Shown here piece after piece: positions 22,538-63,227 of a stretch of DNA of 64,000 nucleotides. The stretch is from Leisingera sp. M658 (GTDB lineage: Bacteria > Pseudomonadota > Alphaproteobacteria > Rhodobacterales > Rhodobacteraceae). The stretch spans positions 2,062,501-2,126,500 of the forward strand of contig NZ_CP083546.1 of NCBI RefSeq assembly GCF_025144145.1. Reading direction: 5' to 3'. The position numbers and the translations under genes were made by a program. The first letter of the stretch is position 1, and every line of letters starts with the position of its first letter. The notes below the pieces were generated by a model, which had not been told where the DNA came from, searched no databases, and was given only the letters and a program-made list of their open reading frames with translations.

Positions 22538-23435
22538 GGTGCTGGTTTACGCAGGCCTTGCACTGGCGGCCGCCGCTGCGCTGACCAACTGGCAGGCGGG
22601 CCGCCGCGAGGCGGCGGCTGTCGCAAGCCACCCGCCATTGGGACAAACCCTGGTGGCGGGCAGCCACCGGGTGCATGTGGTAGAGATGGGCCGGCCCAAA
22701 GGCAGCGCGCCGGATCTGGTGCTGATCCACGGCTCCAGCGGCAGTACACGCGATATGACCTTCCGGCTGGCACCGGCTTTGGCAGAGGACTTCCGCATCC
22801 TGATATTCGACCGGCCCGGACTGGGGTATTCGGACCGCATCAATGGCACCGGGGCCACCATCCGCCAGCAGGCTGCCCTGCTGCGCCAGGCCGCGGCGCA
22901 AATGGGGGCGGACAGGCCGATTGTGCTGGGCCAAAGCTATGGCGGCGCGGTTGCGCTGGCCTGGGCGGTGGACCACCCGGACAGTATCTCGGCGCTAGTG
23001 ACTGTGTCCGGCGTCGCCTATCCTTGGACCACGCCGCTGGACCCGCTGTACCGGGTCACCTCCTCGCGTGCTGGCAGTATGGTGGCGGTGCCCTTGCTGA
23101 CCGCCTTTGTGCCGGACAATGCTGTGTCCCGATCGCTGCAGGAGGTCTTTGCGCCGCAAGCCGTGCCGGAAGGATATGCGGCCCATTTTGGCCCCGGCCT
23201 GTCGCTGCGGCGCACGTCCCTGCGCGCAAATGCCCGGCAACGGGCAAACCTGCTGCAGGAAGTGACCGAACTGTCGCCGCGCTATGGTGAAATCCCGGTT
23301 CCGGTGGAAGTTTTGCACGGCACTGCTGACGATCTGGTCAGCCCGGAGCTTCACGCCCAAGGCCTGGCCCGGAATGTGAAAGGCGCGCAGCTGACCCTGC
23401 TGGATGGTATCGGCCATATGCCGCAGCATTGTTAG
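22512..23435 (+). pseudogene. Alpha/beta hydrolase, 5' part interrupted by the prophage
   Basis: N-terminal 306 codons of an alpha/beta hydrolase plus one prophage-encoded Cys codon and a TAG stop (the prophage end TGTTAG read in frame). It has a membrane anchor (VLVYAGLALAAAAALTNW), the oxyanion HGSSGS, the nucleophile elbow GQSYGG, an acid in GTADDLVSPE and the catalytic His in GIGHMPQH. All catalytic elements are therefore present and only the last 20 residues are lost; the protein may still be made. ATG at 22512 lies inside the 3' end of metA, so the two are coupled. The 3' remnant is at 63223-63290. Confidence 0.9.
23425..23429. repeat. Target-site duplication, left copy (AGCAT)
   Basis: AGCAT immediately before the prophage TG end; the same five bases directly follow the CA end at 63223-63227. 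Five-bp duplications are the hallmark of Mu transposition. Confidence 0.95.
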
Positions 23436-23879
23436 GGGACACTTGATATTGCAGTAACCGGAAGAGGCCGGATGAAGCCGGAAGAACCCGGATGAGGCCA
23501 TATAAAAAAGGGCTTTCAGGAAGGTTTGAACCTGTAATGGGGCTCGGGGCGTTTGTCCTTCAATACCCGGCAAAATGGCCGATATGGCGCCTGAAGGCAA
23601 ATCTGGGACACTTCCCGTTGCAAACTCTCAAACACCCCTGAAAGGCCCGTAAAACAGGGTTTTAACGCAGGAGCGGCGGCGGGTAGGCTCCTGAAATCGA
23701 GTTCCCGAACTTGGAACTAGCCCTAAAAATTTCGGGACACTTCCAAGAACGGGATTATCGCTTCAAATACTTAGGGTTAAGCGCACAGCGGCGGGAAAAC
23801 ACCTTGCCCGAACTTGGAAACGAATTCTGCTGCTTCTCGCTCAACAGACCCTAAGACAATTTGGGTCACTTCGGAGGCA
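23436..23879 (+). repeat. Left-end transposase binding sites and degenerate repeat region
   Basis: About 430 bp without a gene. It holds copies of the 18-bp site GGGACACTTCCCGTTGCA: L1 at 23436-23453 (14/18), L2 at 23605-23622 (exact), L3 at 23734-23751 (12/18), and a weak L4 at 23863-23879 inside the end of the next gene. L3 and L4 each close a degenerate repeat unit of about 100 bp (about 23656-23751 and 23773-23879) that shares AGGGTT, GCGGCGGG, CCCGAACTTGGAA (23704-23716 and 23807-23819) and CCCTAA. Analogous to the L1-L3 attachment sites of Mu. Confidence 0.8.
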
Positions 23880-24710: not shown

Positions 24711-24761
24711 GCCGCTTTATGTTCACTCTGGCACCGCCCTTCGACGGCGCCATAAGCGCGG

Positions 24762-25397
24762 CTATGTTAGCATCGCGGGTGCGGTAGATCGCGAAACTGA
24801 ACCAACATCATCTGTACCAGTTTCAAAATCCCACCGAAGAACACAAATTCGCCCATCCCGCTGGTCGGTAACCGGGCCAAACTGCCTAACGGCAAACCCC
24901 GCCCTGCGGAATGTCCGCAAGAAGATCGGGTTCATCAGTCCCAACATTGTTACGCCTCCTCGCGAGACGACATGACTGCGTGCCGCAGTAATCAATGCCA
25001 CCAACACGCTATTCCTCATCCGCATCTCCACTGAAGGAGAAACTGCAAGACGGGAAGCCTCCCACACGCTGCTGGAAGCCAGTTCTTCTTGCATAATGTT
25101 TGCAGGCAAGTTTGGAATGTTCCCGCGATGCGCATCCAGGATCATGTATGTTGTGCCGCTATGCTCGCTGTCAGTTCGAAGCAACCGCAGGCAGCCCACC
25201 AACTTCCCGGCAGCAACGGCAGCAAGATGGACTGAGGCTGGTATGTCGTATTGATCGAACTCGCAACCGAAACTCTCGTGCAAGTTCCACCCCATAGATG
25301 AAATGAAGACTTCTCGCCGCAAGCGTAGGCAATCGGTGTACAGGTCCAGCCGGGTTTCAGGGTTAGTCAGGTCGATTAGGTGTGTCACAATCATCAT
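24762..25397 (-). CDS. luxI: LuxI-family acyl-homoserine-lactone synthase
   Basis: 211 aa. It would make an N-acyl-homoserine lactone from SAM and acyl-ACP or acyl-CoA. The family residues are in order: Arg28 and Phe31 (LRREVF), Trp37, Asp48 and Asp51 (EFDQYD), Arg71 (GCLRLL), Glu113 and Arg116 (WEASRLAVS). The last 25 residues extend beyond the usual end. It lies 47 bp after luxR on the same strand; tandem ATG codons at 25397 and 25394 and a weak ribosome site. An operator-like dyad sits in the gap. AT-richer than the phage structural genes. FeeM-type N-acyltransferases are related, but the full residue set favours an AHL synthase. Confidence 0.85.
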   Translation of the reverse strand: MMIVTHLIDLTNPETRLDLYTDCLRLRREVFISSMGWNLHESFGCEFDQYDIPASVHLAAVAAGKLVGCLRLLRTDSEHSGTTYMILDAHRGNIPNLPANIMQEELASSSVWEASRLAVSPSVEMRMRNSVLVALITAARSHVVSRGGVTMLGLMNPIFLRTFRRAGFAVRQFGPVTDQRDGRICVLRWDFETGTDDVGSVSRSTAPAMLT

Positions 25398-25409
25398 TCA
25401 GAGCCGTTA

Positions 25410-25427
25410 TTCATAATTCGTTATGAT
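25410..25427. promoter_or_regulatory. ATCATA-N6-TATGAT-type dyad upstream of luxI
   Basis: TTCATAATTCGTTATGAT, 12 bp before the luxI ATG (minus strand). It fits the 18-bp dyad seen upstream of the repressor and the early operon with one mismatch. Confidence 0.6.
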
Positions 25428-25444
25428 GATACCCAAGCTACTCA

Positions 25445-26044
25445 CTAAATCATAGGAATGATCCCACTCCACTTCCTTATGGAGTATAGGGACAACGCTG
25501 CTCTGAAATTTGAAACGCCGAGCTTACTGCATATCACTTTCTTCCTCTGCGCGATTGCGGAGATCGACACTCTCAACTCGCTAGCAATTTGCTTATCCAA
25601 CAAGCCCTCCTCGCACATTTCCATAAAGTCGACCTGACCGTCGGACAGGTTATCCACCCCCTCAAGCAGGACAGTCTTGTGCGCTGCCTGGCAAGCATGG
25701 TGCAAGGCCGGTGCAGCTCGCCCATCAAGGTCATGATTTACACCACCAAAGATCATTCTGTTGCCTCCAAAGGCTGATACGGAAATGAAGTTACTGTCAG
25801 CACCGAATTGCCGAGCCTCTTCAAACAGGGGCGAAGACATTTCCTCTTGAGAAAGAAGCTTCGACGCCGATCTGCCCCCGCACTGCTTTGTGAAGTGAAA
25901 GACCGGGTCAACCGCGTGAAACTTGTGATCAAAATATCTCTGATGCCATTCCGCACTGAAACTTGTTTCCGCTGATGTTGGCACCTCGCCGGGGGACAGG
26001 ATCACAAATCCAAACCCCGAAAAACTTTCTTGCATAAAGTGCAT
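25445..26044 (-). CDS. luxR: LuxR-family quorum-sensing transcription factor
   Basis: 199 aa. The N-terminal autoinducer-binding domain shows the W-x3-Y ... D-P pattern (EWHQRYFDHKFHAVDPV: Trp33, Tyr37, Asp46, Pro47). The C-terminal LuxR-type helix-turn-helix is at about 132-191 (LSDGQVDFMEMCEEGLLDKQIASEL ends with a KLGVSNFRAAL helix). The N-domain is somewhat shorter than in TraR/LasR. ATG at 26044 chosen over GTG 26047. It lies directly upstream of luxI in the same orientation, the classical cognate-pair arrangement, and is transcribed leftward with the repressor. Confidence 0.85.
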   Translation of the reverse strand: MHFMQESFSGFGFVILSPGEVPTSAETSFSAEWHQRYFDHKFHAVDPVFHFTKQCGGRSASKLLSQEEMSSPLFEEARQFGADSNFISVSAFGGNRMIFGGVNHDLDGRAAPALHHACQAAHKTVLLEGVDNLSDGQVDFMEMCEEGLLDKQIASELRVSISAIAQRKKVICSKLGVSNFRAALSLYSIRKWSGIIPMI

Positions 26045-26078
26045 CACTGTGAAAATAATCCCTCTAGAGACGTCATTT

Positions 26079-26105
26079 TCATAATCAAACGTGAAAAATC
26101 ATAAT
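26079..26105. promoter_or_regulatory. Half-sites upstream of luxR
   Basis: Two half-sites, TCATAATC at 26079 and ATCATAAT at 26098, in the luxR upstream region. They do not form the full 18-bp dyad. On the minus strand the second reads TTATGAT and could also be a -10 box. Confidence 0.35.
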
Positions 26106-26131
26106 ATGTCAACAAAAATTCGGATTTCACG

Positions 26132-26311
26132 ATGAGGTCGCCACGCGATGACTTAGTCGCAAAAATTGAGCGCCTCCCGAAGGAAGCGCTCTCGATGGTC
26201 ATCATTGCTGTCTTGGATCTTGCTAGTCTTGATGAGACTCAAGGTGCTCCGCAAAACGAACCTCAAGCTCGCGAACTAGAGCCGGCAACACCTCATCTGG
26301 CAGATCGTTAA
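26132..26311 (+). CDS. Small ORF (59 aa) between luxR and the repressor
   Basis: 59 aa, rightward, with a natural-looking helical segment (DDLVAKIERLPKEALSMVI). It overlaps the 3' end of the convergent repressor gene by 89 bp. The LP-x-E-x-L pattern resembles the repressor C-terminus (INDLPDEVLPALVRELE). The ribosome site is weak (GGA). It could be a small regulator, a gene remnant or chance. Confidence 0.35.
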   Translation: MRSPRDDLVAKIERLPKEALSMVIIAVLDLASLDETQGAPQNEPQARELEPATPHLADR

Positions 26312-26567
26312 TAAGCTGCCGCAGAACTGCTTTTGGATTACTCAGCGGATTATCGGTGTCCAGATCCGAGACTGAAGAAAGACCAAGCGCCTCTACCACC
26401 TTAACAATCGAGCGTTGGCTAAGCTCAGCGGTAGACCCGCTCGTGAACTTTGAAAGTGTATTTGGCGAGAGCTTAACAGAGTTCGCAACCCTCGTAGGGT
26501 TTGTTCCCTGGGCAGCCATCAAGATGCGAATGTTTCGCCGCCGCCGCTCCCAATCCACTTCAGTCAT
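26223..26567 (-). CDS. HTH (XRE/Cro-type) repressor, likely prophage immunity repressor
   Basis: 114 aa from ATG 26567 (MTEVDWERRRRNIRIL), which has a good GGAG ribosome site; the frame opens 18 codons earlier without one. The helix-turn-helix is at about 18-45 (TRVANSVKLSPNTLSKFTSG), followed by a helical tail, possibly for oligomerisation. It is transcribed leftward, divergent from the early operon, the classical position of a phage repressor such as Mu c. Palindromes flank its promoter. Too short to include a LexA-type autoprotease domain, so induction must work another way. Confidence 0.75.
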   Translation of the reverse strand: MTEVDWERRRRNIRILMAAQGTNPTRVANSVKLSPNTLSKFTSGSTAELSQRSIVKVVEALGLSSVSDLDTDNPLSNPKAVLRQLINDLPDEVLPALVRELEVRFAEHLESHQD

Positions 26568-26595
26568 CACCAGTCTCCGTAGTCTGATCATGGTT

Positions 26596-26613
26596 ATCAT
26601 ACTGCAGTATGAT
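26596..26613. promoter_or_regulatory. Operator dyad upstream of the repressor gene
   Basis: ATCATACTGCAGTATGAT, a perfect 18-bp palindrome 28 bp before the repressor ATG. It shares ATCATA-N6-TATGAT with the early-operon dyad. Confidence 0.7.
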
Positions 26614-26668
26614 TTCCTCAACCTGTATTTTTTTGCAGGTGGTTCCCTAGTGTGATTTTTGGCATAAT

Positions 26669-26702
26669 TTGATGTTGTAAATCATAATCAATTATGATTT
26701 AC
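26669..26702 (+). promoter_or_regulatory. Early promoter overlapping a 26-bp operator palindrome
   Basis: A perfect inverted repeat (12-bp arms around CA) at 26677-26702 contains ATCATAATCAATTATGAT. A plausible promoter is TTGATG (26669-26674), an 18-bp spacer and TATGAT (26693-26698), whose -10 is the right operator half. Repressor bound here would block the rightward early operon. Confidence 0.7.
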
Positions 26703-26729
26703 TGTCTCACAACATAACGTGAGGCAAAG

Positions 26730-27026
26730 ATGATCAACGCACCCGAACAGCATATTGTTCCAGTCATCCCCTCCCCAGAGCAGTTTGCAGAGTGGGTGAG
26801 TGGGTCATTGGAACGTCTCAAAAAGCGGCCTAGCCACTACCTCTTGGAGGAAGGGGTGCCAGGTTCCAAAAACCGGGTCTCTAACTTCATCAAAAACCCT
26901 GAGTTTTTGCGGCTTCACTTAGCCTGTGAATTGCAGCGCCAAATCCTGACTGATGCAGTCCGATACGGCGTGAACCTAGACCCCATTAAAATACAACAAC
27001 TTAGCTCAATCATCCGTTCTAATTGA
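26730..27026 (+). CDS. First early gene, unknown (98 aa)
   Basis: 98 aa, RBS GTGAGGCAAAG. A Pro-rich start (VIPSPEQFAEWV) is followed by a possible DNA-binding helical segment (NRVSNFIKNPEFLRLHLACE). By position it corresponds to ner/cro-like genes of Mu-type phages, but no such homology is evident. It is the first gene under the putative early promoter. Confidence 0.65.
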   Translation: MINAPEQHIVPVIPSPEQFAEWVSGSLERLKKRPSHYLLEEGVPGSKNRVSNFIKNPEFLRLHLACELQRQILTDAVRYGVNLDPIKIQQLSSIIRSN

Positions 27027-28170: not shown

Positions 28171-28231
28171 CATGGTCGCATGCTTCCCAGAAATAGCGGT
28201 CGAGACTGCTGTTGCCCAATGGTTTCTCCAT
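27788..28231 (-). CDS. Possible antisense gene inside the early operon (147 aa)
   Basis: Minus-strand frame from ATG 28231, 147 aa, ordinary amino-acid mix (LDRYFWEACDHANELLDLF; KIEQQWPVIHLDLLKND) and GC-rich codon third positions, unlike the overlapping plus frame. It would run against the early operon. No family recognised. It could be an inserted accessory gene, with the region 28232-28354 as its promoter and the parB leader. A chance shadow frame is not excluded. Confidence 0.4.
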   Translation of the reverse strand: MEKPLGNSSLDRYFWEACDHANELLDLFDLQTRQQMLPKIEQQWPVIHLDLLKNDQPALTFLSEGPTDRERSLAKLDLGKGFLLWVQARFLALQAATALDIAASLSTKLDSPAKTPFRQAVPVVAREALLFLDQPTPEEVLLLELPD

Positions 28232-28354
28232 CCTGAGGACCTGCAGGGCGACTGTACTGCCGCAAATCTGGGGCGCAACCCCGCCGGCCATGCTGCACAG
28301 AACGGCAGGCCATCCCTTGAAACCCCTGAATTCAATCAAAGTGGAGCATCCCCA

Positions 28355-29248
28355 ATGACCCCTCCAAATTGGCAGAAAATTCAAACCCTTCCGGTTGCTG
28401 ATATCCAAGTGGAAGAACGCCTGCGCACGGCCTCCCCCACGGCGGTTGCCAGCATTGTTTCGTCCATCCATGAGGTCGGCAGCATCCTGCAGCCGCTGCT
28501 GGTGCGCAGGGTCAAAGACGGCTACCGGCTGATGGATGGCCTGCACCGCCTGACCGCCGCCAAGGAAGCCGGGCTGGAAGAAGTGCCGGTCAAGGTCAGC
28601 GAATGCACCAACGACCAGGCCATCCGGATTGAGGTTGACGCCAATGTGGCCGGCGCCCCGCTGACACCGTTGGATATGGCCGTGTTTCTGGCCGCGCACA
28701 AAGAGCTGTATGAGCGGGAAAACCCCGAAGCCAGACGCGGCAGCGCGGGCGGGCGTACAAAGAACGATGTGCTAACTGACAAAATGTCAGTTAGCAGTTT
28801 TGCCGCCAACGCCGCCGAGGTGTTCGACAAGGGCGAACGCCAGATTTTCCGCCTGATCAGTGTCGGCGAAAAGCTGTCCAAGGATGAAATCACCCAACTG
28901 CGGGACGCACCGAACAAGGTGCGTTTCAAAGACTTGGAACACATCGCCAAATGCGGCGAACAGACAGACCGCAGCGCCATATGCGCGGCCCTGGGCAGCG
29001 GTGAGGCCAAATCCGCCAAAGAGGTGATGGCCCGCAAAAAGGCCCCCGGGGCGGCGGTGCAATCCACCACGGACCAGCAGGCCGCCAAGATCACCGACGC
29101 CTGGCTGCGCGGGTCCAAAGCTGCACGGACGCAATTTGCGGAGAAATTCCGCGATGAGCTGCTGGAGCTTCTGCAGGAGGCCGAAGACAGTGACACGCCC
29201 GCCTCTGAAGTTGTGATGTTTCAAGCCCGCGACCGGGAGGACGACTGA
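28355..29248 (+). CDS. ParB-like N-domain protein
   Basis: 297 aa from ATG 28355 (GTGGAGC ribosome site); the frame is open from 28172 but without domain character. It has a ParB/Srx fold at about 10-95, with LQPLLVRRVKDGYRLMDGLH giving the G-Y-x-L-x-D-G-x-H-R motif, then helical DNA-binding-like regions and a helical tail. Such genes precede transposase genes in several Mu-like phages. The role may be DNA binding or nuclease/CTPase. Its stop overlaps the transposase start (TGATG). Confidence 0.82.
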   Translation: MTPPNWQKIQTLPVADIQVEERLRTASPTAVASIVSSIHEVGSILQPLLVRRVKDGYRLMDGLHRLTAAKEAGLEEVPVKVSECTNDQAIRIEVDANVAGAPLTPLDMAVFLAAHKELYERENPEARRGSAGGRTKNDVLTDKMSVSSFAANAAEVFDKGERQIFRLISVGEKLSKDEITQLRDAPNKVRFKDLEHIAKCGEQTDRSAICAALGSGEAKSAKEVMARKKAPGAAVQSTTDQQAAKITDAWLRGSKAARTQFAEKFRDELLELLQEAEDSDTPASEVVMFQARDREDD

Positions 29249-31380
29249 TGGTCAGCGGCATCACACCCGAAAAGGAATGGTGGACGGCAGCGGAAATTGC
29301 CGAGGCAAAGCTGCCGGGATTGCCGGGCAGCGTGCGCGGAGTGAACGCTTTTGCAGAGCGCTGGGGCTGGAAAAACAACCCGGCAGCGTTGCAACGCAGG
29401 CCGGGGCGCGGTGGCGGGCTGCTGTTTCATTGGTCGGTGCTGCCGTCTGCCGCTCGTGAAAAACTGGCGATGCAGGAAGCCGCCGCGCCAGTAGAGCGCC
29501 CTGACCGGACTACCGCCTGGGTGACCTATGAAAAGCTGTCCCAGAAGGCCAAAGACGAGGCTGCGGCACGGCTGGATGCAATCCAGAAAGTTGAGCTGCT
29601 GCACGGCAGCGGCACGGCCCATGTTCAAGCCGTGGCAACCATTGCGGCTGAATTCAACGCCAGCCCGCGCACGATCTATAACTGGCTGGCGCTGATTGAG
29701 GGCATCCCGGCGGTGGATCAGCTTGCCTACCTGGCACCTCAGCCGCCTAAGAAACGCACCCGGAAAGAAGACCGTGCCAAATTCAAGCCGTTCATGGACT
29801 GGCTGAAGAGCGTTTTCCTGCAGTTTGAGGGGCCGACCTTTTCCCAATGCTACAGGAAGGCGAAGCTTAAAGCCGAAAAAGAAGGCTGGCCCTTCCCCAT
29901 CCAGAAAACCGCCAAGCGGTGGGTAGATGCTGAGGTGCAGCGCACCACCCAGATTTATACTCGTGAAGGCCCGCGCGGGCTGATGCGCTGTTATCCGGCG
30001 CAGATCCGCGACCGCTCGTCTCTGACAGCAATGGAAGCTGTGAATGCCGACTGCCACAAGATCGACGTCTTTGTGGAATGGCCCGATGGCACCGTAAACC
30101 GCCCCCAAATCATCGCTTTTCAGGACCTTTACTCCAACAAAATCCTGTCCTGGCGGGTGGACCATGACCCTAACAAAGTCATGGTGATGGCGGCTTTTGG
30201 CGAGATGATCGACAACTGGCGCATTCCCAAGCGGTGCCTGTTCGACAACGGCCATGAATTCGCAAACAAGTGGATGACAGCGGGGGCGCCGACCCGGTTC
30301 CGGTTCAAGATCCGGGAGACCGATCCGGTGGGCGTGCTGCCGCTGCTGGGCATCCAAATGCACTGGGCTACCCCGGCGCACGGACAAGCTAAGCCGATTG
30401 AACGGGCCTTCCGGGATATTGCCAGCGACATTGCAAAAGACCCCCGCTTTGCAGGTGCCTATGTCGGCAACCGCCCCACTGCCAAGCCTGAAAACTACGG
30501 CAGCCGCGCTGTGAAACTGGCTGAATTTCTTGAAGTTCTGGCCGAAGGCATTGAAGAACACAATGCCCGCCCCGGCCGCCGGTCTGCCAACGCCAACGGA
30601 AGGTCCTTTGACGAGACCTTTGCAGACAGCTACGCCACGACCACGCTTCTGAAGGCGACCGAAGAACAGCGCAACCTTTGGCTTATGGGCCAGGACACCG
30701 GCAAGCTGCACAAGCACAACGGCAGTCTGAATTTCCACGGCAACGTCTATCACTGCGACTGGATGAGCCAGGAGGCCAACCGCAACATTGTTGTGCGCTT
30801 CGATCCTGAAGACCTGCACAGCGGCGTTCATATCTACAGTGCCGAAGGCGCGCACCTGGGCTTTGCCGAATGTCAGCAGAAAATCGGCTTCTTTGATCTT
30901 GAGGGTGCGCGCTCGACCGCGAAGCGGAACCGTCAGATCAAAAAGGCTGAAAAGAAACTCGCAGAGCTGCACCGCCCGCATACGCCGGAACAACTCGGGG
31001 CTGACCTGAACGGGATCCGCAAAGAAACAACCGCACTGATGGAAGCCAAGGTGGTGAAGCCCGTGTTTCCCAAGACCCCCAGGGTCTCAACCTTCAGGCA
31101 GCATTCGGACCCCAGCGCCGAGGCGGCCCAGGACGCCCTCATTCTGCAGATCGGCGCCAAACGGAAGAAACCCGAACCCTCCCCCAAACAGGAGACATTC
31201 AAGGTGGCCGCAACACGAGACGAACGGTTTGCCCAGGCGCAGGAAATCGAGCGCAGGCAGCAAAACGGCGCCCCGGTCGGGGAGCGCGAGGCCAGCTGGC
31301 TGAAAGGCTACCAGCAGCATTCGGAATACGAGGCGCTGGCAGCGCTGAAACAGGCATTCGGCGGCAATAACGCCGGGTAG
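29248..31380 (+). CDS. MuA-type DDE transposase
   Basis: 710 aa. Catalyses strand transfer for integration and replicative transposition and binds the end sites. The N-terminal Mu-type winged HTH is EWWTAAEIAEAKLPGLPGS (about 10-60), followed by a second HTH region (FNASPRTIYNWL, about 136-147). In the integrase core the likely triad is Asp268 (NADCHK), Asp333 (LFDNGHEF) and Glu385 (AKPIERAF), close to D269/D336/E392 of Mu. The C-terminal region is Mu-type and ends in a basic/helical tail for the MuB/ClpX contact. Confidence 0.95.
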   Translation: MVSGITPEKEWWTAAEIAEAKLPGLPGSVRGVNAFAERWGWKNNPAALQRRPGRGGGLLFHWSVLPSAAREKLAMQEAAAPVERPDRTTAWVTYEKLSQKAKDEAAARLDAIQKVELLHGSGTAHVQAVATIAAEFNASPRTIYNWLALIEGIPAVDQLAYLAPQPPKKRTRKEDRAKFKPFMDWLKSVFLQFEGPTFSQCYRKAKLKAEKEGWPFPIQKTAKRWVDAEVQRTTQIYTREGPRGLMRCYPAQIRDRSSLTAMEAVNADCHKIDVFVEWPDGTVNRPQIIAFQDLYSNKILSWRVDHDPNKVMVMAAFGEMIDNWRIPKRCLFDNGHEFANKWMTAGAPTRFRFKIRETDPVGVLPLLGIQMHWATPAHGQAKPIERAFRDIASDIAKDPRFAGAYVGNRPTAKPENYGSRAVKLAEFLEVLAEGIEEHNARPGRRSANANGRSFDETFADSYATTTLLKATEEQRNLWLMGQDTGKLHKHNGSLNFHGNVYHCDWMSQEANRNIVVRFDPEDLHSGVHIYSAEGAHLGFAECQQKIGFFDLEGARSTAKRNRQIKKAEKKLAELHRPHTPEQLGADLNGIRKETTALMEAKVVKPVFPKTPRVSTFRQHSDPSAEAAQDALILQIGAKRKKPEPSPKQETFKVAATRDERFAQAQEIERRQQNGAPVGEREASWLKGYQQHSEYEALAALKQAFGGNNAG

Positions 31381-31444: not shown

Positions 31445-32188
31445 ATGACACAGACCTTGGAAATCGGCAATAGCGTACAGCCGTTGACCAACGTGGCGAC
31501 AATGGCTGAGCTGGTAAAAGAGCTGCAGAACCGGACCTTTGGAATGCCGGGTTTGGGGGTGTTTTACGGCTACCCCGGATATGGCAAAACCTTTGGTGCC
31601 ATCTTCTGCGCCTCTGCCTTTGACGTCATCCATATTTCCATGCAGGGCGATTGGACCAAAAAGACCTTTTTGGAGCGGCTGCTGAACGAGCTGGGCGTGG
31701 CGCCCAAGCGGGTGGTGCCCGATATGGTACTGCAGGCCTGCGAAGAACTGGCGCTGGATGGCCGCACGCTGATTGTCGATGAGGCCGACTATGCCTTCCG
31801 GCGCGGCGTGATTGAGCTGATCCGGGATTTGCACGATGGGTCGGAAACTCCGGTTGTCATGATCGGCATGGAAGAGTTCCCGCAGAAGCTCCGGAAATAC
31901 GAACTCATTGACAGTCGGGTTATGTCCTGGGTCGCCGCGCAGCCGGCAACCTTGAAAGACGCGAGCCTTCTGGCAAGCGTTTATGCCGAGGGCGTGGACG
32001 TTGCCGAGGATCTTCTGGACGCCATTATGGAACGCAACACAGGCAACGTGCGGCGCATGGTGACCGATCTTGCCCAGGTCAAAGGCGAGGCAAACAAGCT
32101 TGGCCAGACCAGCATGACGCTGCAGGACTGGGGCGGCATCGAATTCCGGCGCAAAGACGCGCCCAGCCCGCGCCGGGGGTTGAAATGA
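31445..32188 (+). CDS. MuB-type AAA+ ATPase, target-DNA activator
   Basis: 247 aa. Walker A GYPGYGKT at 42-49 and Walker B TLIVDEAD at 108-115. ATP-dependent DNA-binding protein that delivers target DNA to the transposase and gives target immunity. It lacks the N-terminal HTH of Mu B (312 aa), as in B3/D3112-type relatives. ATG at 31445 after TAGGAGCGAGC. Stop overlaps the next start. Confidence 0.92.
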   Translation: MTQTLEIGNSVQPLTNVATMAELVKELQNRTFGMPGLGVFYGYPGYGKTFGAIFCASAFDVIHISMQGDWTKKTFLERLLNELGVAPKRVVPDMVLQACEELALDGRTLIVDEADYAFRRGVIELIRDLHDGSETPVVMIGMEEFPQKLRKYELIDSRVMSWVAAQPATLKDASLLASVYAEGVDVAEDLLDAIMERNTGNVRRMVTDLAQVKGEANKLGQTSMTLQDWGGIEFRRKDAPSPRRGLK

Positions 32189-33093
32189 CCCAAGTCACCG
32201 CCCGCGATGCCGCTGAAACCGAGATCCTCGAATTCATCCAAACCCGGTTGCGGTTTACCCGGAAAGAACTGAACGAACACTGCAGCGCCAGCAATTGGAA
32301 GCAAGAGAACTTCCTGCGTGAGTTGACCCGCAGGGGCGTTGTCAGCAAATGCGAGAGCGTAGGGAAAAAGCGTTATTACACTGCTTTTGGGGCCGATCAG
32401 ACTGCGGAGACAGTTGCTGAAGCCACCATGCAATCCCCAGTAAGCACGCTCGGCACCTCCCATCACGAACACAGCTCTGGAGAGGCTGACCGTCAACTAG
32501 AACGGTTGTTGAAAAAGATGCAAGACACCCCAAAAACCGAGATGGAATTCCTGCCTGTCAAACCGGAAACTCCGGAAGAGCAGCACATCTGGGACTACAT
32601 TTCCGGACGCCCCTATTTCAGCAGATCCGATGTTGAAATGGCCTGTGCGTCAGAGATTATCCGCCGCCGGTTTCTGCGCCGCCTTCAAGACGCAGGCATT
32701 ATGAGGGCGTGGGGAAGCAGCCAAGGGCGGACCCTATTTACGGTCAAAACTGCGGAGGAAGCACGCGAAATAGCCAAAGACAAAAGGGGTTCCTTGGAGG
32801 GCATCATCTGGACCGCCATCCGTCATCAAAAGCGCTTTAAGCCCCTGGACCTCTTTGCTGCACTGGCGCCTGCGAGACCGGAAATCACTCTGCAGCTTAT
32901 CGTCGGTTACTGCCGGATGCTGCGCCTGTCGGGATACATTCGCGTGTCTGCTAGAACACGGAATTTGAATGCCGATACGCCTCTGTTTCTAATAAAAAAC
33001 ACTGGCCCGCTGCCGCCCCAAAAAAAGCGGATGACTGTGATTGTCGATGCCAACGATGACAGGATTATCTATGCACCAGGGGGGCGCCTGTGA
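32185..33093 (+). CDS. Winged-helix protein, unknown
   Basis: 302 aa with what look like two or three winged-helix units: about 10-65 (FTRKELNEHCSASNWKQENF ... VSKCESVGKKRYYTA), about 130-185 (FSRSDVEMACASEIIRRRFL ... GRTLFTV), and a third-like region at 200-260. No named family recognised. Lies between MuB and the HTH/Cys protein, with ATGA overlaps on both sides, in the early operon. Visibly more AT-rich than the neighbours. Confidence 0.7.
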   Translation: MTQVTARDAAETEILEFIQTRLRFTRKELNEHCSASNWKQENFLRELTRRGVVSKCESVGKKRYYTAFGADQTAETVAEATMQSPVSTLGTSHHEHSSGEADRQLERLLKKMQDTPKTEMEFLPVKPETPEEQHIWDYISGRPYFSRSDVEMACASEIIRRRFLRRLQDAGIMRAWGSSQGRTLFTVKTAEEAREIAKDKRGSLEGIIWTAIRHQKRFKPLDLFAALAPARPEITLQLIVGYCRMLRLSGYIRVSARTRNLNADTPLFLIKNTGPLPPQKKRMTVIVDANDDRIIYAPGGRL

Positions 33094-36058: not shown

Positions 36059-36321
36059 AGAAGTTCCGCCACTCTGTGTCCGACAATGCCGTCCTGCGCC
36101 ATCTGGAACGTGTGGAAGGCGTGAACATAAGTGCAGTGCGCCGCAAGATTGCCCGCATCGCAGATCTTCAGGCCGATCACCCTTTTGCAACAGGCGTTCT
36201 TTCCGGCGGGTTTTCGTACAAGATCCAGGACGGCGTTGTAACAACAGTCCTGCCTGCCCCTGGCCGCCGCAATAAGAGCAAGCGCAAAGCGCCAAAGGCC
36301 CGGATCAATGGCAAAGGATGA
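36055..36321 (+). CDS. Hypothetical protein (88 aa)
   Basis: 88 aa, basic C-terminus (RRNKSKRKAPKARINGKG), no recognised domain. Between gemA and the Mor-like gene; overlaps both. Confidence 0.6.
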   Translation: MKKFRHSVSDNAVLRHLERVEGVNISAVRRKIARIADLQADHPFATGVLSGGFSYKIQDGVVTTVLPAPGRRNKSKRKAPKARINGKG

Positions 36322-36700
36322 GCTGAGTTTTCCTAAGCCGCCTGCCCAGGTGGAACCTTATATGGAAGCCCTGGGGCTTGAGGACACCTTGCGTTTCCTT
36401 GAAGCCTTCGGCGGCGTTGAAACCTACATCGCCACCCATCCGACCGCCCGGTCCAAGGTTGTTGAGCTGATTGGCTACCCTAAGGCCCGGATGCTGGCAG
36501 CCATTGAAAACCGCTTGCAGCGCCGTGTTCCCCTGGTCAAGGAATGGCGCGCGGCAGTCTACCACTCTCAGGGCTTGCCAACCGTGCAAATTGCTCTCAA
36601 GCTTGGCGTGACCGACGTCAGCGTCCGCCGCTGGCTGCAGAAACCGGGTGTGCGGCGCAAGTCCGACCCGAACCAGCCTTCCCTGTTTCCCGGCGTATAG
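36308..36700 (+). CDS. Mor-like transcription activator (HTH)
   Basis: 130 aa, close to Mu Mor (129 aa). An N-terminal dimerisation-like part (LEDTLRFLEAFGGVETYI) and a C-terminal HTH (LPTVQIALKLGVTDVSVRRW). As last gene of the early operon it sits where Mor is expected to switch on middle/late transcription. The assignment rests on size, position and layout; identity to Mor is low by eye. Confidence 0.6.
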   Translation: MAKDELSFPKPPAQVEPYMEALGLEDTLRFLEAFGGVETYIATHPTARSKVVELIGYPKARMLAAIENRLQRRVPLVKEWRAAVYHSQGLPTVQIALKLGVTDVSVRRWLQKPGVRRKSDPNQPSLFPGV

Positions 36701-60963: not shown

Positions 60964-61227
60964 TTGAAGCTGCAAGACCAGCGTTGCGGTGAATGCCGCA
61001 GATTGTTATTCAAAATTGAGCCTGGCGCCCTTAGCGGCACGCTCGCCATCAAGTGCCCAAGATGCAAGGCACATAATTCCCTGAGGCCGCAGAGCCCTTC
61101 ACCAAAGCGCCCGGATCAATCCAATGAGCGCGATGGAAAGGAAGGGCAGAATGCCCACGTCATCCGAGATCAATCTACCCCCGCTGCCGCCCGGAACCCA
61201 CGGGAAACCGAAAGGGAACCGCTATAA
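60964..61227 (+). CDS. com: Com-like zinc-finger translational regulator
   Basis: 87 aa from a TTG at 60964 (RBS GGAG at 60952-60955). Zinc ligands Cys8, Cys11 (RCGECRRLLFKIE) and Cys31, Cys34 (IKCPRCKAH) match the pattern of Mu Com, an RNA-binding protein that releases translation of mom. Extra Pro/charged tail of about 45 residues. A 12-bp palindrome GTCCTCGAGGAC at 60928-60939 precedes its ribosome site. First gene of the right-end cassette, where com lies in Mu. Confidence 0.85.
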   Translation: MKLQDQRCGECRRLLFKIEPGALSGTLAIKCPRCKAHNSLRPQSPSPKRPDQSNERDGKEGQNAHVIRDQSTPAAARNPRETEREPL

Positions 61228-61333
61228 GCGCCAGTTCGGCGTTATTGTCCTGGTGCCGGACGAACCGGCCCAGAAAGCGCTTTTTGAGGAGCTGAAGGCC
61301 CAGGGGCGCAAATGCAAGGTGGTGAACACATGA
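61151..61333 (+). CDS. Small protein of the Com cassette (60 aa)
   Basis: 60 aa from ATG 61151 (RBS GGAAGGG), overlapping com by 77 bp in another frame. Pro-rich start, then QFGVIVLVPDEPAQKALFEE and KCKVVNT, a strand-helix-strand pattern. Its overlap with com and ATGA with the next gene suggests translational coupling. Unknown. Confidence 0.65.
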   Translation: MPTSSEINLPPLPPGTHGKPKGNRYKRQFGVIVLVPDEPAQKALFEELKAQGRKCKVVNT

Positions 61334-62409
61334 GGCTCAGCATCCACCACAAATCCCCCATCCCAGAAACCTACCGCGCAGCCCGCGTGTCCAGCATGTT
61401 CAATGTGGAAGATGATGCAGACTTCCGCTTGGAACTGGACGCCGACCTGGGCGCCCGCCCCTGGCAGGTTGGCTTGATCATCGGGCCGTCCGGCTCCGGC
61501 AAGTCGTCCTTGGGCCGCAAGCTGTTCGGCCGGAACGCAGACGCCGCCCCTAAATGGCCCGGTAATGCGGCCGTCATTGATGCAATCTCCCCGGATAGCG
61601 AAATGGACCAGGTCACCGCCGCGCTCGCCGCTGTGGGCTTGGGCAGCGTGCCGAGCTGGCTGCGCCCATGGCGGCACCTTTCCAACGGGGAGCAGTTCCG
61701 TGCCAATCTGGCCCGCTTGCTGTGCGAGCGCCCCGCCCTGGCCGTCGTGGACGAGTTCACGTCGACCATCGACCGGCAGGTTGCCAGAATCGGGGCGGCT
61801 GCCTTCTCCAAAGCCTGGCGGCGGGGCGCCGGCCAATTCGTCGGCATTACCTGCCACGACGATGTGGCCAAGTGGCTGCAGCCGGATTGGGTGATTGATA
61901 CCCGCAGTGCCGAGCTTAAATGGAGGCGTCTTCGACGGCCGCCAAGCATCGCAATGGACATTCACAAGACCGACGGTTCCTACTGGCCCCTGTTTGAGCC
62001 GCATCACTACTTGAAGATGCCCCGAATGGTCGCGGCGGACTATTACACCGGCTTTGTCGGCGGCGAACCCGTTGCGCATGTAGCTTTCAGCCCCCGGCCT
62101 GGTTTGGTCGAGGCCCGCGCCTGCCGCCTGGTCATTATGCCGGAATGGCAAGGCGCCGGGCTGGGGCTGCGGTTCCTGAATGAGGTCTGCGCCCTGTGGC
62201 GCCGAGGCGTGAACCGTTACGACCGCCCGATGCCCTCACTCTTTCACACGTCACACCCCGGGCTGGCCGCCGCTCTGCGCGCTCAGCCGCTTTGGGCACA
62301 GGTTTCCTCTGCCCTCGGCTGCGCCGCCTCAAAGAGCACCGGCAGTCTCAAAGGCCGCCTGGGCGGCCATTTCCGGGCAGTACAAGGATTTCGATATGTC
62401 GAAGAATGA
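61330..62409 (+). CDS. ABC-type ATPase fused to a GNAT domain (Mom-like position)
   Basis: 359 aa. Residues 1-200 are an ABC-type ATPase: Walker A GPSGSGKSS (52-60), signature-like LSNGEQFRANLARLL (117-131), Walker B ALAVVDEF (136-143) and a His in ITCHDD. From about 210 a GNAT-type acyltransferase domain: EPHHYLKMP, GEPVAHVAF, then RLVIMPEWQGAGLGLRF (266-282) as the acyl-CoA pyrophosphate loop. Mu Mom is also GNAT-like and follows com. A DNA-modifying acyl transfer, perhaps with ATPase-driven DNA handling, is inferred. Confidence 0.82.
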   Translation: MRLSIHHKSPIPETYRAARVSSMFNVEDDADFRLELDADLGARPWQVGLIIGPSGSGKSSLGRKLFGRNADAAPKWPGNAAVIDAISPDSEMDQVTAALAAVGLGSVPSWLRPWRHLSNGEQFRANLARLLCERPALAVVDEFTSTIDRQVARIGAAAFSKAWRRGAGQFVGITCHDDVAKWLQPDWVIDTRSAELKWRRLRRPPSIAMDIHKTDGSYWPLFEPHHYLKMPRMVAADYYTGFVGGEPVAHVAFSPRPGLVEARACRLVIMPEWQGAGLGLRFLNEVCALWRRGVNRYDRPMPSLFHTSHPGLAAALRAQPLWAQVSSALGCAASKSTGSLKGRLGGHFRAVQGFRYVEE

Positions 62410-62974
62410 ACCGTTCCGCGTGGCCGTCATCGGATGTTCCTGGCTGGCGGCCGAGGTGCTGCGCCGTCTTGCAGGTGAAGGCTATGCGCTCGCATTGATT
62501 ACCGAGCCGGAAGACACTCTGGCAAAGGCGGCGGCCGAGGACCTTGGCATCCCCTGCAAGGTAAAGGCCCGGCGCCTCCCTCTGCTGTCGGCCGACCTGC
62601 CCTGGCGGCCCGACTTGGTGGTGTCTGCGCATTCTTTCCGAATTGTACCTGCCTGGTTCATCGAATGGTCGCGGCTCGGCGCCATCGGCTACCACCCATC
62701 ATTGCTGCCGGAGTACAAAGGGCGCCATGCGATCCGGGATAGCTTGGCCGATGGGCAACGCATAACCGGCGGGTCGGTCTACTGGCTCACACCTCAGACC
62801 GACAGCGGACCGGTAGTCACAGCGCATGGACAGCGGCTGCAGGAGGCCGTGCAGGTTCTTCCCGGTGAAACCGCTCTGCAGCTTTGGAAGCGGGCGCTGG
62901 CGCCTCTGGGGGCAAAATTGCTTCTGTCCGCTGTCGGGGCCGAATCCTTTGCAGGCCCTTTAACACCCCTTTAA
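62396..62974 (+). CDS. Formyltransferase-fold protein
   Basis: 192 aa. Formyl-THF-dependent transferase fold (Fmt/GART N-terminal type): a Rossmann-like start VAVIGCSWLAAEVLRRL, GYHPSLLPEYKGRHAIRD at 98-115 and QTDSGPVV (Asp136). The usual N-x-H triad is G-Y-H here: His100 and Asp136 are kept, Asn is Gly98. Lacks the C-terminal tRNA-binding domain of Fmt, so it is not a housekeeping Fmt. Overlaps the ABC-GNAT gene by 14 bp. Probably formylates or otherwise acts on the modification precursor or base. Confidence 0.8.
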   Translation: MSKNEPFRVAVIGCSWLAAEVLRRLAGEGYALALITEPEDTLAKAAAEDLGIPCKVKARRLPLLSADLPWRPDLVVSAHSFRIVPAWFIEWSRLGAIGYHPSLLPEYKGRHAIRDSLADGQRITGGSVYWLTPQTDSGPVVTAHGQRLQEAVQVLPGETALQLWKRALAPLGAKLLLSAVGAESFAGPLTPL

Positions 62975-63222
62975 ACACCCCTTAAAACCCTCCGCCGCCC
63001 TGCGTTTTTTTACGTTTTGGGCGGCGGGTTGCCGGGTATTGCAACGGGAAGTGTCCCGTACTGCAACGGGAAGTGTCCCAAAATTCCGGCGTCAAATCGC
63101 GGAACAGGAGCAGAACCGGACTGGCTAAGCGCTGGTTTTGCGCCTAAAAATTAGGGAAATCGCAAAAATGAGTTGCTGCAACGGGAAGTGTCCCGCACTG
63201 CAACGCGAAGTGTCCCGCTACA
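62975..63222. repeat. Right-end region with four transposase sites
   Basis: 248 bp without a gene. Near 62955-62985, TTAACACCCCT-like direct repeats; then a long inverted repeat CCGCCGCCC / GGGCGGCGG (about 62991-63028) with T-rich loop, likely the cassette terminator. Inverted copies of the 18-bp site are at 63040-63057, 63062-63079 and 63177-63194 (all exact) and 63199-63216 (17/18). They form two pairs, each with 22-bp pitch. The element ends CTACA at 63222. Confidence 0.88.
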
Positions 63223-63227
63223 AGCAT
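63223..63227. repeat. Target-site duplication, right copy (AGCAT)
   Basis: Identical to 23425-23429 and directly adjacent to the prophage CA end. Confidence 0.95.

Follow-up and report, generated by a model that had tools for sequence, protein, structure and literature searches.

The closest described systems are the four-gene lysis-lysogeny modules of Phaeobacter inhibens prophages dissected by Bunsick et al. (bioRxiv, July 2026; PMC13345283). Two prophages of strain T5 carry such a module, Phage A of the Mu family and Phage B. According to that account their LuxI enzymes make C12-type AHLs, of which that of Phage B and one of those from Phage A are active at about 1 nM. P-lysogeny of the T5 phages requires luxI and luxR, and the phage AHLs drive lysogeny; XRE is needed in Phage A and hinders in Phage B. 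A Phage A autoinducer also activates the receptor of the P. inhibens host. Modules are exchanged among Roseobacter phages and with modules based on cI or BRCT, their retention in degraded prophages has been reported, and the phage LuxI proteins were sorted into types A-J with membership at ≥80% identity (PMC13345283).

Two other phages carry related genes. In the Aeromonas phage ARM81ld an XRE-LuxR pair reads the C4-HSL of the host and drives a counter-oriented lysis gene (PMC9894119), and a coral-associated phage has the synthase and receptor genes raiI and bjaR1 (PMC11309003). A literature search covering titles and the starts of abstracts recognised no other paper on luxI of Mu-like or Leisingera phages.

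Here we analyse a stretch of 64,000 nucleotides from Leisingera sp. M658 (G000:C1:2062501-2126500, referred to as the window), which carries a luxR-luxI pair in a Mu-like prophage. A phage-borne pair of this sort is not the first, since luxI systems occur in 53 of 93 Roseobacter prophages, and the kind is already known because the module has been shown in P. inhibens prophages (PMC13345283).

The cassette genes, their products and candidate control sites

Both genes were found where a complete luxR-luxI pair had been predicted, at 24762-26044, and both products scored above the Pfam cut-offs (Table 1). The luxI product reached 53.5 bits against Autoind_synth (cut-off 24). The luxR product, 200 aa counted from GTG or 199 aa if the ATG at 26044 is taken, matched Autoind_bind (E 1.5e-8) and GerE (E 1.8e-5), the latter bearing out the predicted HTH pattern. 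Residues were compared in alignments of six sequences, the window and five relatives. R27, F31, W37, D48, D51, R71, E113 and R116 of LuxI, which we take to be the conserved catalytic set of the family, were invariant in all six and aligned with their counterparts in TofI and LasI, as the original prediction had it. Among the LuxR residues that, judged after TraR and LasR, we assume to contact the ligand, W34, Y38, D47 and P48 were likewise invariant (6/6) and aligned with TraR. The predicted Trp/Tyr/Asp-Pro pattern is thus kept. The residue four before the conserved Trp, however, is Phe here and Tyr in TraR, which speaks against a full match.

The AlphaFold2 models of the two proteins had pLDDT values of 80.7 and 74.3. 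The ten best of 409 structure matches of the LuxI model were AHL synthases, and FeeM and further GNAT proteins came next. All 30 PDB matches of the LuxR model at E≤0.001 were LuxR-type AHL receptors (SdiA, RhlR, LasR, QscR, TraR and CviR), with TM 0.30-0.46. By sequence, the alignment of the LuxR ligand domain with solved structures was confined to profile positions 10-63; most of this domain resembles known receptors by predicted fold alone, at low TM. In eight gene comparisons (window against G003 and Phaeobacter sp. 11ANDIMAR09) pS was 0.66-0.80 and pN 0.12-0.26, and the cassette genes are therefore under constraint. A chance origin of the luxI and luxR ORFs is excluded.

The unit to which the pair belongs is larger than had been predicted. 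A bare luxR-luxI pair was rejected because the conserved unit has four genes and spans 24762-27026, with xre, luxR and luxI running leftward and hth rightward. The xre product matched HTH_3 slightly below the cut-off of 23 (22.4 bits, E 1.3e-4). Its ATG start was picked by comparison with relatives, the longest frame beginning with TTG at 26621. The product of hth gave no family match and no HTH match in the scans run, Pfam, PHROG and PADLOC among them; its identity rests on its position and on homologues in like cassettes, found at the equivalent place in eight of nine related cassettes. A PADLOC scan of 10 proteins gave xre a weak match to PDC-M64B (E 7.5e-5) and the product of 61312-62409 a match to mad3 (E 2.3e-10). 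Luckless in the same scan were luxI, luxR and hth, and a role in anti-phage defence was set aside on these results.

Table 1. Features of the prophage and its cassette, in window coordinates.
Feature	Position	Strand	Basis
Target-site duplication AGCAT, left copy, within alpha/beta hydrolase gene	23425-23429	.	empty-site alignment
Mu-like prophage, 39,793 bp, TG...CA ends	23430-63222	.	empty-site comparison; PHROG and Pfam matches
Left-end repeats GGGACACTT, starts 23436, 23605, 23734	23436-23742	+	likely transposase sites
luxI, AHL synthase homologue, 211 aa	24762-25397	-	PF00765 E 2.8e-14; predicted fold
luxR, AHL receptor/activator homologue	25445-26047	-	PF03472 and PF00196 above cut-off; predicted fold
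TTGACA with a pair of TTATGA half-sites spaced by 20 bp, ahead of luxR	26079-26112	-	possible second promoter/operator
Terminator-like hairpin directly after xre	26168-26191	-	sequence scan
xre, Cro/CI-type HTH regulator, 114 aa (ATG 26567)	26223-26567	-	HTH_3 match, alignment
Dyad ATCATACTGCAGTATGAT with possible -10 TATGAT of xre promoter	26596-26613	.	role inferred
lux-box-like dyad ACCTGCAAAAAAATACAGGT, ACCTG-N10-CAGGT	26621-26640	-	pattern search
Sigma-70-like promoter candidate TTGGCA-18-CATAAT before hth (P-lysis candidate)	26659-26688	+	consensus scan, 10/12
22-bp perfect palindrome AAATCATAATCAATTATGATTT over -10 of hth promoter candidate	26679-26700	.	pattern search
hth, divergent gene placed as hth of the published module, 98 aa	26730-27026	+	position and homologues
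ParB-like protein, transposition block	28172-29248	+	Pfam, PHROG
Mu-type transposase A	29248-31380	+	PF02914 E 2e-47, phrog_310 E 1.1e-146
Mu B-like transposition ATPase	31445-32188	+	phrog_296 E 2.6e-50
Right-end repeats AAGTGTCCC, starts 63049, 63071, 63186, 63208	63049-63216	-	likely transposase sites
Target-site duplication AGCAT, right copy	63223-63227	.	empty-site alignment

The hth-xre gap holds the candidate control sites. The exact form ACCTG-N10-CAGGT, which we take to be that of the V. fischeri lux box, occurs once in the window, in this gap upstream of xre; allowing one mismatch, the window has 6 matches against 1.5 expected from shuffles. The possible -10 TATGAT at 26596-26601 would imply a start about 42 bp downstream of the centre of this lux-box-like dyad. 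Over ten cassettes (the window and nine others) the form is exact in three, present with at most one mismatch in five, at most two in six and at most three in nine, and L133 has no such form up to three mismatches. The sites in L043, L044 and L047 are weak, with three mismatches, which taken singly is near chance; those of L043 and L044 stand in an aligned column. The parts AATCAT and TGATT of the palindrome over the hth promoter candidate are invariant in all seven aligned cassettes. Promoter-like sites numbered 7 against 3.4 in shuffles, and terminator-like sites in the region were not above shuffles (6 and 5.5). Since the patterns were chosen after the sequence had been viewed, shuffle counts overstate the palindrome and the lux box, and conservation in relatives is the better support for the sites.

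Between xre and luxR, 156-181 bp apart in seven aligned cassettes with the luxR starts chosen, lie further elements. A compact hairpin follows xre in the window, L036, L040 and L043 and is poorer in L041, L042 and L044. TTGACA or TTGACC with TTATGA half-sites 19-20 bp apart is found in the window, L036, L040 and L041, which suggests a possible second promoter or operator for luxR-luxI. Hairpin and block together fit a simple three-gene operon badly.

The Mu-like prophage and related cassettes

The unit lies between the left end and the transposition block of the prophage, in agreement with the predicted place in the lysogeny arm. The empty site in three congeners (L068, L069 and L070) aligned up to 23429 and again from 63223, with 5 bp common to both parts; the insertion interrupts an alpha/beta hydrolase gene. 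We call the prophage Mu-like for its Mu A and B, TG...CA ends and 5-bp target duplication, and GGGACACTT repeats lie near either end. PHROG scans of 41 prophage ORFs and one flank ORF (the longest-ORF list of the prophage has 49) matched transposase A and B, ParB, HU, late activator, amidase, terminase, portal, head protease, connector, tape measure and fibres. The prophage is apparently intact. Matches to transcription regulation were luxR, xre (weak), 32185-33093 and the late activator at 36308-36700, and among the 41 scanned ORFs the only match of the lysogeny-repressor type was the weak one of xre. Near the right end, at 60964-62974, a Com zinc-ribbon gene precedes one for an ABC/AAA-ATPase protein, which also matches GNAT below the threshold, and a formyltransferase-like gene. 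We take this to be the place where Mu has com-mom, and the set is possibly another DNA-modification operon.

The original prediction had proposed a survey of related Mu-like prophages for the pair. All seven relatives whose full-length LuxI is 54-80% identical by tblastn have xre, luxR, luxI and hth arranged alike next to a Mu-like transposase (G003, with hth at L036:6500-6796 on the minus strand, G116, G102, G106, Phaeobacter sp. 11ANDIMAR09, a Rhodobacter MAG and G408). Two remoter cassettes, with LuxI 42-43% identical, sit in other phage types, and luxI is kept with the cassette in nine of nine. One is on the 40.6-kb Phaeobacter piscinae plasmid pP18_f (L047), which has all four genes together with terminase, portal and tail genes. 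In the other, G405, xre, luxR and luxI lie near terminase, portal and head protease genes; no match to hth was obtained and none to transposase A within the 18 kb read. Plasmid pP18_f resembles a phage-plasmid with the same sort of switch, and two 41-kb P. inhibens plasmids (NZ_CP010733.1 and NZ_CP010703.1) have a luxI of like identity, 42%.

Wider scans gave few close matches. LuxI matches at E≤1e-5 occurred in 110 of 293 relatives, and six of these were at least 54% identical (the own genome, G003, G116, G102, G106 and a partial one in G073). The LuxI profile matched 6 of 394 genomes drawn from the family at E≤1e-40; in the genus of Phaeobacter sp. 11ANDIMAR09 the LuxR profile matched 3 of 12 genomes. 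A single-sequence scan of IMG/VR gave no match and a profile scan one contig, L046, identical to L040 over 12,733 bp. L041, L043, L044 and L046 duplicate the elements in L037, L038, L039 and L040, each of which entered the counts a single time; L045, with LuxI 24% identical and no match to the other module genes, was left out. In INPHARED, tblastn returned four records for LuxI, at most 28.5% identical, and two for LuxR, in the HTH part only.

More distant pairs were also seen. L061 (G302:C8) and L059 (G293:C2), from the genus of Phaeobacter sp. 11ANDIMAR09, have luxR-luxI pairs whose LuxR is 34% identical to the second type described below. A small ORF occupies the xre position in L061, and a scan of two nearby ORFs gave one match, to a PHROG whose function is unknown. 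L060 (G304:C18) carries xre, luxR and luxI with a small divergent ORF, near terminase and portal genes; its LuxI is 30% identical to that of the window, and the set is a further phage-borne cassette, again of a different type.

Two cassettes on one chromosome and probable traces of replacement

A second Mu-like prophage of 40.3 kb with recognisable left and right ends lies at about C1:2425644-2465929. Blocks adding up to 25,638 bp of the window prophage (39,793 bp) align to it at 91.4%, besides the first 200 bp at 87%, and its transposase A is 97% identical. No clean 5-bp duplication was found at its ends (CCCGC left, GTCCC right; the 7-bp GTCCCGC is common to both). This sister prophage carries a different xre-luxR-luxI set and a divergent gene; its LuxI, LuxR and XRE are above the Pfam cut-offs, and the divergent gene has no Pfam match. 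LuxI is 24% and LuxR 26% identical to those of the window over about 155 residues. The hth-xre gap has a different operator-like dyad, TAAAAGTCC-N7-GGACTTTTA, the arms of which are constant, with varying spacer, in all three second-type cassettes (G000, G002 and G005). Between G000 and G005 dN/dS was 0.05-0.17 in each of the four genes. The second-type LuxI protein is 96% identical in G002 and 90% in G005, in step with host DNA (95% and 88-89%).

In G000, G002, G005 and G003 the right-hand host sequence of the sister lies 32.4, 32.4, 33.7 and 33.9 kb from transposase A; given the similar distance and same orientation, the copies appear to be at one site. Around this place the left end of the sister borders immediately on another Mu-like element, at the right end of the latter (L063 5474-5660, L078 19880-20000), end-tip-like repeats CCGCTACA come after its right end, and right-end pieces match at the site also in G009 and G016. 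The place looks like a spot of repeated insertion.

The genome of 4.89 Mb has five PF00765 matches in all, three of them luxI homologues outside both prophages. The host-core status of these extra genes was judged only for two, for one by the ORFs near it and for another by the way a near-identical plasmid is annotated. On contig C7 a 3.5-kb stretch shares 98.3% identity with a plasmid from Leisingera sp. M527.

A search of 21 genomes of the genus gave six copies of transposase A (E≤1e-40), distributed over five of them. The window type of cassette is in the window and G003 and the second type in the sister prophage, G002 and G005; the G020 copy, cut at the contig start, was left out of the typing. 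In G003 the final 81 codons of a luxI of the second type (67% identical) come after the window-type cassette, inside the left end. G073 has a Mu-like prophage with transposase A 41% identical in which the window-type luxI is reduced to its last part, residues 123-193 (54% identical). This remnant stands directly after a two-gene set of an HTH protein with repressor matches and a protein with weak anti-repressor matches, and a BRO-type anti-repressor is nearby. Both scars are best read as replacements broken inside luxI that left its 3' end. A stretch of 53 bp, 83% identical, is present at the 3' end of both luxI cassettes (window 24717-24769, L063 9454-9506) and could be a means of cassette exchange. 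The cassette thus described looks like an exchangeable immunity module, and the co-residence of sister phages in one cell may depend on its type.

The proposed switch and its published counterparts

On the directly observed gene content, place, conserved operator-like sites, constraint, two cassettes on one chromosome and scars, we propose that xre-luxR-luxI and the divergent hth are probably the lysis-lysogeny switch and immunity region of the Mu-like phage. By analogy, LuxI of a lysogen would make an AHL, and AHL-bound LuxR would bind the lux box upstream of xre. LuxR, with or against XRE, could keep xre, luxR and luxI on in a positive loop, and XRE, LuxR or both would hold the hth promoter off, and with it the transposition block. 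The AHL level would report the density of lysogens, so that abundant lysogens would reinforce lysogeny, the expected outcome, and scarce ones would favour lysis. The sign of XRE here is not predictable because Phage A and Phage B differ in whether it helps or hinders (PMC13345283). That the phage makes and reads its own AHL, as originally predicted, remains the best reading, the same architecture working so in two P. inhibens prophages (PMC13345283); the bare pair did not stand, as xre and hth belong to it, and there is a second system on the chromosome.

The four genes beside a Mu-like transposase in 7/7 close relatives, the regulators at the same place in isolated phages and the apparent repressor/anti-repressor module in the cassette's place in G073 all argue for the switch. 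They also bear on whether luxR-luxI is cargo that alters host quorum behaviour, with lysogeny controlled by another gene. The three luxI homologues elsewhere in the genome and the activation of a host receptor by the Phage A autoinducer (PMC13345283) would suit such cargo. We nevertheless consider it unlikely, since the genes lie where isolated relatives have a CI-type or unnamed regulator and G073 its repressor/anti-repressor set, xre and hth accompany the pair in every relative with LuxI at least 54% identical, and the 41 scanned ORFs gave no other repressor-type match.

Against the switch stand the Phe in place of the TraR Tyr in LuxR, the low TM of the LuxR fold matches, the hairpin and TTGACA/TTATGA block between xre and luxR, the lack of a clean 5-bp duplication at the sister prophage, the weak or missing lux box in L043, L044, L047 and L133, and, by analogy, ARM81ld, whose XRE-LuxR pair works the opposite way, from AHL to lysis (PMC9894119). 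As in that phage, LuxR might use a host AHL and promote lysis at high cell density, luxI being secondary; we regard this as very unlikely, because luxI is conserved with the cassette throughout the nine related ones and the lux-box form is on the xre side of the gap. Highly improbable, finally, is a decaying or domesticated module without part in the phage cycle. Retention of quorum-sensing modules in degraded prophages (PMC13345283) and the sister copies at apparently one site in several species are compatible with it, but the window prophage has both ends, a 5-bp duplication and its principal genes for transposition, head and tail, and all four genes of the switch are open and evolve under purifying selection.

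If the lysis-lysogeny switch operates as proposed, the sister phage at C1:2425644-2465929 could share the cell since specificity would reside in one exchangeable cassette; we infer the heteroimmunity from the cassette difference. We put forward tentatively, as a possibility somewhat short of probable, that the quorum cassette is the immunity determinant of these Mu-like phages, in which AHL and operator identity set heteroimmunity. Differing cassettes would then permit co-residence of sisters, backbones would be homogenised by recombination with the cassettes kept apart, and a cassette replacement within a resident prophage, broken inside luxI, would change its chemical immunity type or end chemical signalling. 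The one genome with two sister prophages is a single case and no proof that differing cassettes are needed for co-residence. If true, phage immunity could be a matter of chemical signal type. The chromosome offers a natural test, with two close phages differing above all in the signalling cassette, and the newly reported use of phage-made diffusible signals is extended to another genus.

Three isolated Mu-like phages, vB_PeaS-P1, vB_RhkS_P1 and vB_ThpS-P1, have transposases 50, 48 and 43% identical to that of the window prophage and ParB, transposase A and B in the same order. In contrast, the cassette place is taken by an annotated CI-type repressor in vB_RhkS_P1 and vB_ThpS-P1 and by an annotated unnamed transcriptional regulator in vB_PeaS-P1.

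The arbitrium system uses a peptide signal and proteins unrelated to the AHL cassette. In the SPbeta phages it is alike in that a self-made signal counts lysogens and favours lysogeny (via PMC13345283). The coral-associated phage has synthase and receptor together on one phage, but its host is predicted to be gammaproteobacterial and the role is a predicted one (PMC11309003). ARM81ld shares the joint use of XRE and LuxR in lysis-lysogeny control and differs in that host C4-HSL is read and AHL promotes lysis; the accessible text mentions no phage synthase (PMC9894119).

The P. inhibens modules are closest, with the same four genes, order and divergence, Roseobacter hosts and, for Phage A, likewise the Mu family; there, too, cassettes are swapped between related phages and with repressor-based modules (PMC13345283). 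The main text of that paper does not include Leisingera, and the terms 'lux box', 'operator' and 'palindrom' are absent from the text available. Two sister Mu-like prophages with different cassettes on one chromosome, and luxI scars, are found here and not described in that text. By analogy, the Leisingera module is a further case of the kind of switch already reported in P. inhibens (PMC13345283).
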